Source: Acholeplasmatales bacterium
GTDB lineage: Bacteria; Bacillota_I; Bacilli_A; Acholeplasmatales; Anaeroplasmataceae
Direction: 5' to 3'
Assembly (NCBI GenBank): GCA_016280975.1
Contig: JAEEHU010000018.1
Coordinates: 1-42,941, forward strand
Length of the DNA stretch: 42,941 bases
Shown here: positions 10,644-27,051 of the stretch, in pieces
Numbering within the stretch: position 1 is the first letter of the stretch
Layout of the letters: the number at the start of each line of letters is the position of its first letter
Translations under genes and position numbers: made by a program
The notes under the pieces: model-generated
The model's input: only the letters and a program-made list of their open reading frames with translations
Database searches by the model: none
What the model was told of the DNA's origin: nothing

Positions 10644-11687
10644 ATGATATTCAGAAGAAGAGTTTTAGAACCAGAAGAAATAAAGAAAATGTATCCTTTA
10701 AGTAAGGAATTAGAAAAGATAAAAAAGGATAATGATGAGCAAATAAGAAAAATATTCACAGGTGAGGATAATAGATTATTTTTAATCATTGGTCCTTGTA
10801 GTGCTGATAGAGAGGATGCAGTAATTGACTATTGTAAGAGATTAAGAGTATTACAAGAAAAGGTTAAGGATGCAATTTTTATGATTCCAAGAATCTATAC
10901 AAATAAGCCAAGAACTACAGGTGAAGGATATAAGGGTATGTTACACCAACCTAATCCTAATGCTGATGTAGATATGGCTAAGGGTGTTATTGCAGTAAGA
11001 AAGCTTCATATCGATGTATTAGAAGAAACAGGCTTCTCTACAGCTGATGAAATGCTTTATCCTGATAACTTTACTTATTTATCTGATGTTTTATCTTATG
11101 TTGCAGTTGGAGCACGTTCAGTTGAAAACCAAGAGCACCGTTTAGTCGCATCAGGAATAGAAGTTCCAGTTGGTATGAAAAACCCAACATCTGGCGATTA
11201 TAAGGTTATGCTAAATTCAGTTAACGCAGCTGAGCATCCTCATACATTCATTTATCGTGGATGGGAAGTAGAAACAAAGGGTAATCCTCTTGCTCATACT
11301 ATTTTAAGAGGATATACAAATAAGCATGGTGATTCAAATCCAAACTACCATTATGAGGATATACTAAGACTTATTAATATGTATGATGAAAATAAATATA
11401 TTAATCGTGCAATTATAATCGATTGTAATCATAATAACTCAGGTAAGAAGTTTGAAGAACAAATAAGAATAGCTAAAGAGGTACTTCATTCTAAGGGTCA
11501 TTCTAAGGAAATTAATAAGCTTGTTAAGGGCTTAATGATTGAATCTTATCTAGAGGATGGATCTCAACCAGTAGATGGTAATATTTATGGTAAATCAATA
11601 ACTGACCCATGTTTAGGATGGGATAAAACTGAAAAGCTAATACTTGAGCTTGCAGAACAAATTAGAAAAATTAATTCAGAAGATTAA
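10644..11687 (+). CDS. 3-deoxy-7-phosphoheptulonate (DAHP) synthase, AroG-type, copy A
   Basis: Condenses phosphoenolpyruvate and erythrose-4-phosphate, the first step of the shikimate pathway. It is a 347-aa class I enzyme of the AroF/G/H type. The metal ligands are present: C52 in GPCSAD, His in DCNHNNSGK, Glu in MIESYLEDGSQ and Asp in TDPCLGW. The second copy 72 bp downstream is about 93% identical. Differences cluster at 143-149 and 172-174, which match the Phe feedback site of E. coli AroG. It is coupled to the upstream membrane protein gene. No other aromatic pathway gene is in the window. Confidence 0.95.
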   Translation: MIFRRRVLEPEEIKKMYPLSKELEKIKKDNDEQIRKIFTGEDNRLFLIIGPCSADREDAVIDYCKRLRVLQEKVKDAIFMIPRIYTNKPRTTGEGYKGMLHQPNPNADVDMAKGVIAVRKLHIDVLEETGFSTADEMLYPDNFTYLSDVLSYVAVGARSVENQEHRLVASGIEVPVGMKNPTSGDYKVMLNSVNAAEHPHTFIYRGWEVETKGNPLAHTILRGYTNKHGDSNPNYHYEDILRLINMYDENKYINRAIIIDCNHNNSGKKFEEQIRIAKEVLHSKGHSKEINKLVKGLMIESYLEDGSQPVDGNIYGKSITDPCLGWDKTEKLILELAEQIRKINSED

Positions 11688-11758: not shown

Positions 11759-12799
11759 ATGAAATTCAAAAGAAAAGTATTAGAACCAGAAGAAATTAAA
11801 GAAATGTATCCTTTAAGTAAGGATTTGGAAAAAATAAAAAAAGATAATGATGAGCAAATAAGAAAAATATTTACAGGCGAGGATAATAGATTATTCTTAA
11901 TCATTGGTCCATGTAGTGCTGATAGAGAGGATGCAGTAATTGATTACTGTAAAAGATTAAGAGTATTACAAGAAAAGGTTAAGGATGCTATATTTATGGT
12001 TCCTAGAATCTATACAAATAAGCCAAGAACTACAGGTGAAGGATATAAGGGTATGTTACATCAACCTAATCCAAATGCCGATGTTGATATGGCTAAGGGT
12101 GTAATCGCAGTAAGAAAGCTTCATATGGATGTTTTAGAACAAACACATTTCTCAACTGCAGATGAAATGCTATATCCTGATAACCACCTATATTTATCAG
12201 ATTTACTATCTTATGTTGCAGTAGGTGCACGTTCTGTTGAAAACCAAGAACATAGACTTGTTGCCTCAGGTGTAGATATGCCTGTTGGTATGAAAAACCC
12301 AACATCTGGTGATTATAAGGTAATGCTTAATTCAGTTAATGCTGCTCAACACCCACATACATTTATTTATCGTGGATGGGAAGTAGAGACTAAGGGTAAT
12401 CCTTTAGCTCATACTATTTTAAGAGGATATACAAATAAGCATGGTGATTCTAATCCAAACTATCACTATGAGGATATCCTAAGACTTATTAATATGTATG
12501 ATGAGAACAAGTATCTAAATCGTGCAATTATAATTGACTGTAATCATAATAATTCAGGAAAGAAATTTGAAGAACAAATAAGAATCGCAAAAGAAGTATT
12601 ACATTCAAAGGGACATTCTGAAATTATTAATAAGCTTGTTAAGGGTTTAATGATTGAATCATATTTAGAAGATGGTTCACAACCAGTAGATGGAGCTATT
12701 TATGGTAAATCTATTACAGATCCATGCCTAGGCTGGGAAAAGACTGAAAACCTAGTATTAGAGCTTGCAGAACAAATTAGAAAAATTAATTCAAAATAA
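11759..12799 (+). CDS. 3-deoxy-7-phosphoheptulonate (DAHP) synthase, AroG-type, copy B
   Basis: A tandem paralogue of the preceding gene, 346 aa, with the same catalytic and metal residues. About 24 residues differ. They include I2K, K15E, G130H, F143H, T144L, V149L, I172V, E173D, V174M and E197Q. Synonymous changes are scattered through the gene, so the duplication is not brand new or has drifted at silent sites. Unlike copy A, it has its own promoter, a strong SD and its own terminator, so the two can be expressed independently. Confidence 0.95.
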   Translation: MKFKRKVLEPEEIKEMYPLSKDLEKIKKDNDEQIRKIFTGEDNRLFLIIGPCSADREDAVIDYCKRLRVLQEKVKDAIFMVPRIYTNKPRTTGEGYKGMLHQPNPNADVDMAKGVIAVRKLHMDVLEQTHFSTADEMLYPDNHLYLSDLLSYVAVGARSVENQEHRLVASGVDMPVGMKNPTSGDYKVMLNSVNAAQHPHTFIYRGWEVETKGNPLAHTILRGYTNKHGDSNPNYHYEDILRLINMYDENKYLNRAIIIDCNHNNSGKKFEEQIRIAKEVLHSKGHSEIINKLVKGLMIESYLEDGSQPVDGAIYGKSITDPCLGWEKTENLVLELAEQIRKINSK

Positions 12800-23093: not shown

Positions 23094-23118
23094 ATAAAAA
23101 AGAAAGAGAGATTTGATT

Positions 23119-25149
23119 ATGTATAAAGGATGGGAAGGATTCGTTCCTGGTAAGTGGTCTAATGATGAAATAAACGTTAGAGACTTTATTCAAAGAAATT
23201 ATAAGCCTTATGAAGGCGACGGTAGCTTTTTAGCTGGTCCAACAGAGGCTACAAAGAAGCTATGGAAAATAGTACGTGATCTACAAGATAAAGAAAGAGC
23301 TAATGGTGGTGTATTAAAGGCTGATACTGATATTGTATCAACATTAACAAGCCATAAGCCTGGTTATTTAGATAAGGATTTAGAAAAGATCGTTGGTCTT
23401 CAAACTGATGAACCATTTAAGAGAAGCTTACAACCATTTGGTGGTATTAAGATGGCTGTTCAAGCTTGTGAAATGTATGGTTATAATGTATCAGATAGAG
23501 TAAAGGAAATCTTCTCTAAATATCGTAAGACACATAATGATGGTGTATATGATGCATACACACCTGAAATGCGTGCTGCTCGTTCATCTCATATTCTAAC
23601 TGGTCTTCCTGATACTTATGGTAGAGGTAGAATCGTTGGTGACTATAGAAGAATCGCACTTTATGGTATTGATTATCTAATTAGACATAAGGAATTAGAT
23701 AAGAGCCTAATCGATGGTGATATGCTACCAGATAAGATTAGAGATAGAGAAGAAATAGCTGAACAAGTAAAAGCATTAAAGGCTTTAAAGGAAATGGCAT
23801 TATCATATGGTTGTGATATTTCACTTCCTGCTGAAACTGCTCAACAAGCTATCCAAGCTTTATATTTTGGTTATTTAGGCGCAGTAAAAGATCAAAATGG
23901 TGCAGCTATGTCAATTGGACGTAACTCAACATTCTTAGACATCTATATTGAAAGAGATTTAGAAAAGGGAATTTTAACAGAATCTGAAGCACAAGAATTA
24001 ATGGATCATTTCATTATGAAGCTTCGTATTGTTAAGTTCATGAGAATTCAATCTTATAATGAATTATTCTCAGGAGATCCAACTTGGGTAACTGAATCAA
24101 TTGGTGGTATGGGAACTGATGGTAGAACATTAGTAACTAAGAACTCATTCCGTGTTCTACACACTCTTGATAACCTAGGACCAGCACCAGAGCCAAATCT
24201 TACAGTATTATGGGCAAAGAACTTACCTATGAATTTCAAGAAGTTCTGTGCTGATTTATCAATTAGAACATCTGCAATTCAATATGAATCAGATGAATTA
24301 ATGAGACCTGAAATGGGCGATGATTATTGTATCGCTTGTTGTGTATCTTCAATGAGAGTTGGTAAGGATATGCAATTCTTCGGTGCTCGTGCTAATTTAG
24401 CTAAGTGCTTACTATACGCATTAAATGGTGGTAAGGATGAATTAATGCTTGATAAGAAGACAGGTCGTCCTCTTCAAGTATCTCCTAAATTTGAATCAAT
24501 CACTTCAAATGATCCACTTGATTATAATGAAGTATTAGATAAGTATGATCAAATGATGGAATGGCTTGCTGGATTATATGTTAATACATTAAACCTAATT
24601 CATTATATGCATGATAAATATTCATATGAAGCAATTGAAATGGCACTTCATGATACAAAGGTACATAGATATTTCGCAACAGGTATAGCTGGACTTTCTT
24701 GTGCAGTAGATTCACTTTCAGCAATCAAATATGCAAAAGTAACTCCTATCAGAAACGAATATGGAATTATCACAGACTTCAAGACTGAAGGTGATTTCCC
24801 TAAATATGGTAATAATGATGATAGAGCAGATGAAATTGCAGTATGGCTTGTAAAGACATTCATGAACAAGATTAGAAAGCATTATACTTATCGTGAATCT
24901 GAACCTACAATGTCAATTTTAACTATTACATCTAATGTTGTATATGGTAAGAAAACTGGTAACACTCCAGATGGTAGAAGAGCAGGTGAACCTTTAGCTC
25001 CAGGTGCAAACCCAATGCATGGTAGAGATTCACATGGTGCTTTAGCATCTTTAGAGTCTGTTGCTAAGCTTCCATACGAGTATTCAAGAGATGGTATTTC
25101 TAATACATTCTCTATTACTCCTCAATCATTAGGAAAAGACGAAGATTAA
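23119..25149 (+). CDS. pflB: pyruvate formate-lyase, catalytic part lacking the glycyl-radical domain
   Basis: Converts pyruvate and CoA to formate and acetyl-CoA. The sequence follows E. coli PflB closely (GFVPGKW, FIQRNY, C407-C408 catalytic pair in [38 protein letters not shown]) but stops at SLGKDED. It has 676 aa instead of ~750-760. The missing C-terminal glycyl-radical domain is encoded by the next gene after 15 bp. The stop is followed by a clean SD and ATG, so this is a gene split, not a sequencing frameshift. The ATG at 23119 is preferred over the TTG at 23113 by homology (MYKGWEGF). Confidence 0.93.
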
Positions 25150-25164: not shown

Positions 25165-25398
25165 ATGTCAACAAAGGTAGATAATTTAGTACAAATGTTA
25201 GATACTTACGTAGCTGATGGTGGTTATCATTTAAATGTTAATGTATTCAATCGTGAAACATTACTTGATGCACAAGCTCATCCTGAAAAGTATCCACAAC
25301 TTACAATCAGAGTATCTGGTTATGCAGTAAATTTCATCAAATTAACTAAGGAGCAACAAGACGACGTTATTAGTCGTACAATCCACGAGTCAATGTAA
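25165..25398 (+). CDS. stand-alone glycyl-radical domain of pyruvate formate-lyase
   Basis: A 77-aa protein that corresponds to the last part of Pfl[19 protein letters not shown] leads into [13 protein letters not shown], with radical Gly52, and the end [18 protein letters not shown]. coli GrcA/YfiD (127 aa) has the same domain but acts as a spare part beside a full-length PFL. Here the main PFL chain has no such domain, so this protein should be an obligatory subunit. The start is firm (AGGAGG, 7-nt spacing). A terminator follows, so it is the last gene of the PFL unit. Confidence 0.93.
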
Positions 25399-25469: not shown

Positions 25470-25487
25470 AATTGAGTATTTTTTAAA

Positions 25488-25616
25488 ACAGAGTAGCAAA
25501 GTATGCGTTAAGTGCCATATCACGGGATGTTGGGTATGGACGAACACTATTTGTGGCGGTATCTTTGCGCGTCCGCTGTATTTTATATGGTGGGGCTCTT
25601 TAATTGGAGGCCTTTT
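25488..25616 (+). promoter_or_regulatory. tetrahydrofolate (THF) riboswitch
   Basis: The conserved blocks GAGTAG (25491), GCGTTAAGTG (25505-25514), GGGATGTTG (25524-25532), GCGG and GCGTCCGCT appear in the order of the folate aptamer. Stems support the fold: ACAG (25488-25491) with CTGT (25576-25579), GCAAAG (25496-25501) with CTTTGC (25563-25568), and CCATA (25515-25519) with TATGG (25535-25539). The expression platform probably hides the ribosome site: GGCTC upstream can pair with GAGGCC, which includes the GGAGG before folT. The gene downstream is a folate transporter component, as expected. Confidence 0.88.
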
Positions 25617-25620
25617 TATT

Positions 25621-27051
25621 ATGAAGAAAAACATATTAAAGGCATTGTTTAGATATAAATCAGCAATGCTTGTATTTATTTTAGTAGGATTTTTAGCTGG
25701 TTACTTTGTAACAAGTTTTATATTCAATAATTATTTTTCCTACTATGAATTTAATATTGAAACTAATTTAGCAACTAATTTAGTTTTTAATGAGGATTAT
25801 TTTGAAAAAAGAATAAACTCAATTATTAAAGCTAATGAAAAATTAACACAGTATAATAATGAAGTGAAAAAATATAATGAACTAGTAGTTTTATATAACT
25901 CTAAGCCTGAAAATGAGTCAAATAAAAAAACTGAAATAAAGACAGTTTCTAATACTCCAATTTATTATTGGAAGGTTGATGATATAGTTAATTCTTATAA
26001 GGATATTGGAAAGAATATAATTGTAGATAGTATTGATAATACAAATTATAGAATTAGAATTCAAAATGTAAAATTTACTACATCATTCATTTCCTCATCA
26101 CAAAAAACTAATGAGGGTATAAATAAATGTAAAAAATCAATAACTACAATATTAACATCAAAAGGAATAGAAGTAGCAGCTATTACAATTGATGATGATG
26201 TCATTTTAGGTAGTGATAACACATTTGAACTACTTAAAAATGGTTTTAGCTATTCATTAGCGCCATATTATGATGTTAAGATAACATCTGATTTTAATAT
26301 TACTAATTACCATAATCCATATGGATATGGTGGACTTGCAGCATTTGCAATGTTCTTATTCTCAATAGCATTTTTCTTTATAATAATTAAAGCTAAAAAT
26401 GAAGATTATTTAGTAGATATAGTTGATAATGAAAAGATCTATTCAACACCATTTCATAAATCGTATTGGAAGAATTCATTAAAGCCATTTAAGAATATCA
26501 AGGATATGGTTGTACTTGCAATGCTTTTAGCATTAGTATGCGTATTTAAATTAATTAAAATACCATCAGGCTTTGGTGCCTTAGGTATTGGATTTACATA
26601 TTTAATACTTGCAGTTATTGGAATGATTTATGGTCCAATAGTTGGTTTATTTACAGGAGCATTCTCTGATATTATGGGCTTTGTAATTGCTCCAACTGGA
26701 GGAATGTTCTTTATAGGATATACACTAGATGCAGTAGTATCATGCTTCCTATATGGTATATTTTTCTACAAGACAAAGCTTACATATACAAAGTGTCTAA
26801 TGGTAAGAACTATTATTAATTTAGTTGTTAATGTAGTATTTGGATCACTATGGTATATGATAGTATTTGTTGGCGATTTTACTTATGAAGGATATATGAC
26901 ATACATGACATTTATATCTCTTCCGAAGAATTTAATATATTTATTACCACAGTCAATTGTTTTATTCCTAGTGCTTAAAATAATGACAAAACCACTTGCA
27001 ATGTTTGGCTTAATTGATAATAAAGTTAAGGAAAATGTTACATTATTCTAA
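25621..27051 (+). CDS. folT: folate ECF transporter S component FolT with a large N-terminal extension
   Basis: Substrate-binding membrane subunit of an energy-coupling-factor transporter. The C-terminal ~190 residues (from ~285) are the S component, with IPSGFGALGIGFTYL and GPIVGLFTGAFSDIMGF. The first ~280 residues are unusual: a membrane helix at ~14-36, about 200 mostly polar residues with a charged, coiled-coil-like part, and a second helix at ~238-260. Typical FolT has ~170-200 aa and none of this. The start (ATG 25621, GGAGG upstream) follows the riboswitch, and reading further upstream would translate the aptamer. Confidence 0.88.
   Translation: MKKNILKALFRYKSAMLVFILVGFLAGYFVTSFIFNNYFSYYEFNIETNLATNLVFNEDYFEKRINSIIKANEKLTQYNNEVKKYNELVVLYNSKPENESNKKTEIKTVSNTPIYYWKVDDIVNSYKDIGKNIIVDSIDNTNYRIRIQNVKFTTSFISSSQKTNEGINKCKKSITTILTSKGIEVAAITIDDDVILGSDNTFELLKNGFSYSLAPYYDVKITSDFNITNYHNPYGYGGLAAFAMFLFSIAFFFIIIKAKNEDYLVDIVDNEKIYSTPFHKSYWKNSLKPFKNIKDMVVLAMLLALVCVFKLIKIPSGFGALGIGFTYLILAVIGMIYGPIVGLFTGAFSDIMGFVIAPTGGMFFIGYTLDAVVSCFLYGIFFYKTKLTYTKCLMVRTIINLVVNVVFGSLWYMIVFVGDFTYEGYMTYMTFISLPKNLIYLLPQSIVLFLVLKIMTKPLAMFGLIDNKVKENVTLF

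Follow-up and report, generated by a model that had tools for sequence, protein, structure and literature searches.

An N-terminally extended FolT from a member of the Anaeroplasmataceae, with a putative polysaccharide co-polymerase-like outside domain

S components of ECF importers have to detach from a shared module, dock on it again and topple in the membrane, a cycle that a bulky outside domain tethered by two helices would be expected to constrain. The solved structures of the S component FolT (PDB 4huq, 4z7f, 5d0y, 7nnt; subfamily TIGR04518) have a six-helix fold and an AXXXA motif in helix 1, a motif named in the available part of PMC11109136, and residues that contact folate in EfFolT are given in the accessible sections of PMC4525288. 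Polysaccharide co-polymerases (PCPs), which comprise Wzz, the membrane part of Wzc and KpsE (PF02706), are built from a helix, an outside alpha/beta dome and a second helix; the Wzz proteins organize how sugar polymers are assembled. According to the excerpted text of PMC11041684, KpsE forms a ring around an ABC transporter, and most of the ring contacts come from its dome.

The locus described here encodes a FolT protein which differs from these FolT structures by about 290 extra N-terminal residues. The extra part is best explained, with a probability of about 0.5 for this reading as a whole, as a PCP-dome-like module that serves assembly. No report of such a fusion was found in literature searches on FolT and ECF fusions, on folate in Anaeroplasma and on S components combined with PCPs or extensions.

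The extended folT frame and its distribution

The window is a stretch of 42,941 nucleotides (contig JAEEHU010000018.1, assembly GCA_016280975.1) from an Acholeplasmatales bacterium of the Anaeroplasmataceae. A sequence-only reading had assigned positions 25621-27051 to a FolT fused to a large, membrane-anchored extracytoplasmic domain. The coordinates are correct, as a single frame starts with an ATG at the first of these positions and is preceded by a Shine-Dalgarno sequence and a THF riboswitch (Table 1), the latter scoring 71.2 bits against a gathering cut-off of 36. A protein start near residue 280 finds no place in the sequence, since the only ATG codons there are at residues 296 and 301 and neither has a Shine-Dalgarno sequence, and relatives do not encode the N-terminal part separately next to FolT.

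Table 1. Features of the extended folT locus, in window positions
Feature	Position	Strand	Basis
THF riboswitch aptamer (RF01831)	25487..25580	+	Rfam cmscan
Shine-Dalgarno GGAGG	25606..25610	+	sequence
Extended folT, 476 residues	25621..27051	+	frame conserved in relatives
Extension helix 1, residues 13-39, membrane	25657..25737	+	AlphaFold/DSSP
Outside alpha/beta part, residues 40-232, PCP-dome-like	25738..26316	+	model, fold comparison, profiles
Extension helix 2, residues 233-257, membrane	26317..26391	+	AlphaFold/DSSP
Cytosolic linker, residues 262-290, conserved D-N-x-x-I-F/Y-x-T-P-F-H-K-x-Y-W motif	26404..26490	+	alignment
FolT S component, residues 291-455	26491..26985	+	TIGR04518 and FolT structures
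C-terminal tail, residues 456-476	26986..27048	+	kept in relatives

A search of 60 relatives gave 40 that matched at E <= 0.001, some of them through a short FolT alone. The frame was free of stops in 35 aligned proteins, drawn from 37 strongly matching frames with the window included; L004 was left out for its chimeric contig and L037 because its frame runs into a contig end. Two peptide patterns run on a collection of one genome per species (84,980 species) retrieved 63 loci, of which 52 encode long proteins of 366-528 residues and six encode short ones of 266-267, the rest being an unfused Clostridia FolT (L112), a chimera (L061) and three loci cut by contig ends (L080, L106, L113). The long form is present in strain Anaeroplasma bactoclasticum ATCC 27112 (L075), a member of a wall-less genus. 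In an order-wide search of 160 genomes at the TIGR04518 cut-off, 53 of the 58 genomes belonging to families f1 and f2 exceeded the cut-off, with 44 long frames (394-549 residues), seven short ones (266-285) and two broken ones (the chimera G023 and G003, at a contig end). The other families contributed 47 genomes above the cut-off, with frames of 174-279 residues except for one of 656 (G072), which was rejected as a different fusion; FolT of the neighboring families lacks the extension. Ten unfused FolT proteins that were inspected start near FolT helix 1, most of them behind a similar leader. At least two further long forms, in G445 (f11) and G470 (f21), were found in a sample of 395 genomes of the class.

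The leader GGAGGCC...ATG also recurs in relatives, and the THF riboswitch precedes the gene in 43 of 52 long-form loci, ending 32-73 nt 5' of the start; at the gathering score it was found in none of the six short-form loci. Two loci carry a tandem pair of THF riboswitches ahead of folT (L079:3182-3388 and L107:708-922). These results show that the fusion is real and, in Anaeroplasma-type gut bacteria, widely inherited as a single frame under a THF riboswitch. The seven short-form genomes of the order-wide search retain both extension helices with almost nothing between them. A rapidly built tree of the FolT parts of 72 proteins requires one change each for the long (54), short (seven) and unfused (11) groups; it is moderately supported, the Clostridia row sits on a long branch, and the short form may be either a loss or the older state.

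The FolT half

The C-terminal half belongs to FolT, as had been read from the sequence, except that its onset, placed near residue 280, shifts to about 291 in the model. It matches TIGR04518 with 75.8 bits (cut-off 60), Pfam ECF_trnsprt with 43.1 bits and solved PDB FolT chains at E 1e-16, and it is predicted to adopt the six-helix S-component fold, with Z 17-19.7 against FolT structures. A fold match to Lnt (Z 7.3 and less) falls on this half. The AXXXA motif of helix 1 corresponds to A300/A304, each 68% conserved among 53 proteins. Conservation in the linker motif reaches 96% for F278, 92% for D269, 89% for N270, 85% for Y282 and 83% for H279 in the same set, and the C-terminal tail shows a mean identity of 31% among relatives.

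The same genome holds an EcfT-EcfA pair (G000:C81). Given the intact AXXXA motif, the modeled fold and this ECF module, the FolT half is apparently functional. In the genome, given as 99% complete, the only Pterin_bind protein found is a MetH-like frame of 800 residues; a separate dihydropteroate synthase was not detected, making folate uptake plausible. The protein probably binds and transports folate, with the riboswitch as indirect support. The 335-residue EcfT frame, with an apparent extra stretch, was considered as a partner of the extension and rejected: main EcfT frames measure 323-357 residues whether or not the family has the extension, so that EcfT length is independent of it (a contig-end piece in G059 and shorter second T-like frames in G008, G035 and G038 were excluded).

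When numbered along the alignment, the EfFolT contacts given in the accessible sections of PMC4525288 are partly retained. D64, T81 and N117 have identical equivalents in D350, T368 and N404, and R26 and F80 are conservatively replaced by K310 and Y367, whereas K36 and T121 are changed to G322 and G408. Less surely, via a Lactobacillus alignment, R142 corresponds to S433 and K145 is kept as K436. Since the changed residues (K36, T121 and probably R142) lie on the glutamate side, ligand handling may differ from that of EfFolT.

Structure and relatives of the extension

An AlphaFold model based on an alignment of 33 proteins (mean pLDDT 81.5, pTM 0.72) predicts two helices flanking an outside domain of about 190 residues, followed by a further helix (280-290) and FolT, in agreement with the membrane-anchored domain initially proposed. 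Within the outside part the only helices are 58-93, 119-132 and 166-179, and residues 183-215 are not confidently modeled. The divergent A. bactoclasticum protein was modeled separately from its own 11 sequences (pLDDT 77.1, pTM 0.59). Across 53 proteins, mean pairwise identity is 20.8% in the outside part versus 50.4% in FolT. The best-conserved outside columns are Y116, F152, Y143, Y42 and F46 (72-79%), all at strand positions, and the alignment of the 53 proteins contains no conserved polar residue in the outside part, which is thus best described as a retained fold devoid of a conserved polar site.

A PCP (Wzz) plan had been suspected from sequence ahead of the searches. In fold comparisons, Wzc was the best non-S-component match to residues 1-260 of the window model (Z 8.2, rmsd 6.1, 165 aligned), with lower-ranking matches to WzzE (Z 6.8, rmsd 6.4, 167 aligned) and KpsE (Z 4.9, rmsd 8.0, 156 aligned), and Wzc matched the A. 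bactoclasticum model likewise (Z 8.3, rmsd 4.9, 162 aligned), although a Z near 8 may reflect a common arrangement. The absence of a family from the fold listings was not counted as evidence. Pfam Wzz, the commonest non-S-component family, matched weakly in 8 of the 35 members (best E 0.031), and a Wzz search of the 60 genomes hit the fused frame in ten (E 0.003-0.06), so that in both sets every extension stays below the Pfam cut-off; for the window protein itself no PF02706 match was listed at E up to 10. Direct comparison of the extension with true Wzz proteins by hhalign gave 84-91%. With the outside columns shuffled and the extension helices kept, the mean was still 71% and the maximum 93.8%, indicating that this match is mostly driven by the helices. 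The outside parts alone gave 2.3%, with a score of 17.3 against 8.6 +/- 1.7 for shuffled columns (maximum 13.3). Searches of PDB sequences with profiles of the extension and of its standalone relatives returned no PCP, only coiled-coil or single-helix chance matches.

These standalone relatives were detected by a profile of the extension (51 sequences) run on the 60 relatives. It finds standalone membrane proteins of Anaeroplasmataceae and related bacteria in 12 of these genomes (E 4.4e-15 to 1.6e-4), with matches spanning up to positions 2-167 of its 198, and also touches two true standalone Wzz proteins (E 0.003-0.004); no standalone relative was detected in the window genome. The 11 complete members (L288-L298; the copy in G026 is cut) measure 383-475 residues and comprise an N-terminus like EEGISLxxIFKVIF, a dome-like stretch, a long stretch that appears coiled-coil-like by eye and a last helix. 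They differ from the extension in this long stretch and in lacking FolT. By hhalign, the extension matches the family at 99.0% (E 2e-18) and the outside parts alone at 98.0% (E 3e-13), with at most 1.3% in 60 shuffles, and these profile comparisons firmly support homology that includes the outside part.

The standalone family itself matches Wzz at 96.3% in hhalign. Pfam Wzz matches at E <= 0.14 occur in 6 of 10 standalone proteins scanned (best 2.6e-5), and in the Wzz search of the 60 genomes the member in one genome (G031) exceeds the cut-off with 27.7 bits. The outside part of the family matches Wzz no better than shuffles do and the direct extension match is helix-driven; therefore, the family is regarded as PCP-like and not filed as PCP. 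By eye, sugar-nucleotide and glycosyltransferase-like genes accompany one of four standalone genes whose contexts were inspected, out of seven regions retrieved. Genomes of the window's family also contain Wzz proteins joined to a C-terminus that is kinase-like by eye (frames of 446-559; L149, L154, L157-L159, L163, L165, L166, L169, L174, L175), indicating that the group possesses PCP source genes.

Compared with PCPs, the extension shares the predicted order of helix, outside alpha/beta part and helix, and differs by its Pfam scores, by the long helical crown, which is not present in its model, and by being fused to an importer subunit with no polysaccharide genes among the neighbor genes inspected in the window. 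That the extension and the standalone family belong to the PCP fold (Wzz, Wzc, KpsE), without the crown, is supported but not proven, and this part of the explanation is considered likely. A link between the extension and a standalone, PCP-like membrane-protein family appears to be new.

Possible roles and neighboring loci

In the proposed mechanism, the chain would enter the membrane through the first helix, form about 190 residues outside, return through the second helix and continue through the cytosolic linker into the usual six FolT helices. FolT would bind and carry folate by its ordinary toppling cycle, while the outside part would serve assembly as in PCPs, either by holding FolT in clusters or by placing it at the ECF module that S components share. 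The best guess, so far unproven, is an S component that is ordinary except for an added PCP-dome-like module for assembly or positioning. The helix pair is the constant element of this module, since seven genomes retain it in the absence of the outside domain. Such a role is put first because of the ring contacts of the KpsE dome, as described in the excerpted text cited above, and because the fold is kept with no conserved polar site; argued by analogy to PCPs and KpsE, it is tentative. A more specific form, in which a PCP dome was recruited to vitamin import and an outside ring gathers several FolT copies around the shared ECF module, mirroring on the import side the KpsE cage that surrounds the KpsMT exporter, would be a long shot. 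Should the outside part form rings, the use of PCP folds would extend from polymer export to import.

The helix pair could instead be the working part, as a tether, an orienting element or a docking aid of an eight-helix S component, and the outside domain a dispensable, rapidly changing surface decoration or spacer left from the source gene. The seven genomes with 266-285-residue frames, which retain the pair, and the low identity of the outside part agree with this. The same genome also encodes a second S component (L117:1306-2487 on the minus strand, contig C82, 393 residues), presumably RibU-like, in which the S component follows a helix pair that encloses an outside loop of about 100 residues, repeat-like in pattern. 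Most of its relatives have a short loop at this position, and extended S components may be a habit of the group. The FolT-extension profile does not find L117 and has no second match in the window genome, so that a shared insert in other S components was rejected. The persistence of the long form in 44 genomes and the conserved strand residues indicate that the outside part stays folded under selection, and the tree leaves the short form as either ancestral or derived; a working helix pair with a dispensable domain is a somewhat unlikely alternative to the assembly module. Natural long and short forms within one family provide ready-made constructs for studying the limits of toppling and of module sharing.

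Slightly less probable is convergence, by which the two helices and the alpha/beta domain between them would have arisen independently of the PCPs. The helix-driven profile match and the weak outside-only match would fit. Against it, Wzc ranks first over residues 1-260 in both models, which are of divergent sequences, the standalone family, whose homology to the extension is firm, attains the Wzz cut-off in G031, and the extension profile touches true Wzz proteins.

The outside domain could also capture folate, which had been among the first suggestions, or polyglutamyl folate or a carrier, and pass it on to FolT. The domain would sit by the outward-facing site and the glutamate-side residues are changed, but conservation is highest at strand positions with aromatic or aliphatic residues, short forms exist without the domain and the closest folds are not binding proteins. 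Low identity and the lack of a conserved polar residue make a capture site unlikely, and this reading is considered improbable. An artefactual origin, through a misassigned start or a sequencing error that joined two genes, is ruled out by dozens of assemblies, produced by separate projects, in which the frame, its leader and the riboswitch are conserved, the chimeric contig of G023 with RING-like sequence ahead of FolT being the one case of this kind. Taken as a whole, the sequence-only observation of an extended FolT is confirmed and its interpretation partly supported; among its guesses at function, the relation to the PCP-like family leans toward a role with partners or in assembly. Not covered by it are the extension's relatives, the form reduced to two helices and the changed folate-site residues.

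Several other loci were noted alongside. The names GrcA, PriA, Fmt, TrmFO, RibU-like and lon-like are presumptive. A RING-like, cysteine-rich sequence precedes the FolT half in L004:722-1528 / L061 (CAMJOZ010000052.1), which is probably a chimeric contig, as the matching N-terminal half lies at another contig end (L300). The different fusion of G072 (L231:364-2307, minus strand) is a 647-residue ORF with a FolT-like S component as its first third and a TrmFO-like remainder, by eye; TrmFO is taken here to be a folate-dependent tRNA methyltransferase. A TrmFO-like gene, by eye, also lies downstream of folT in L108.

The neighbors of folT in the window are pfl, a glycyl-radical ORF and a presumably lon-like gene. 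The pyruvate formate-lyase gene is split inside its glycyl-radical domain (23113-25149 and 25165-25398): the 678-residue pfl ORF covers Gly_radical positions 2-50 and is followed by a stop, GGAGG and ATG, and a 77-residue ORF covers positions 52-106. This break is shared by 12 genomes of the genus, window included, and its position is, by eye, close to where the tPFL construct of PMC8683613 is truncated.

A SAM riboswitch lies between folT and a PriA-like gene in nine loci (L051, L053, L057, L060, L075, L077, L091, L103, L107), with an Fmt-like gene, by eye, after the PriA-like gene in those that reach that far; the window differs in having the lon-like gene 3' of folT. Elsewhere in the window, two tandem ORFs with near-identical starts (10644-11687 and 11759-12799) appear DAHP-synthase-like by eye.
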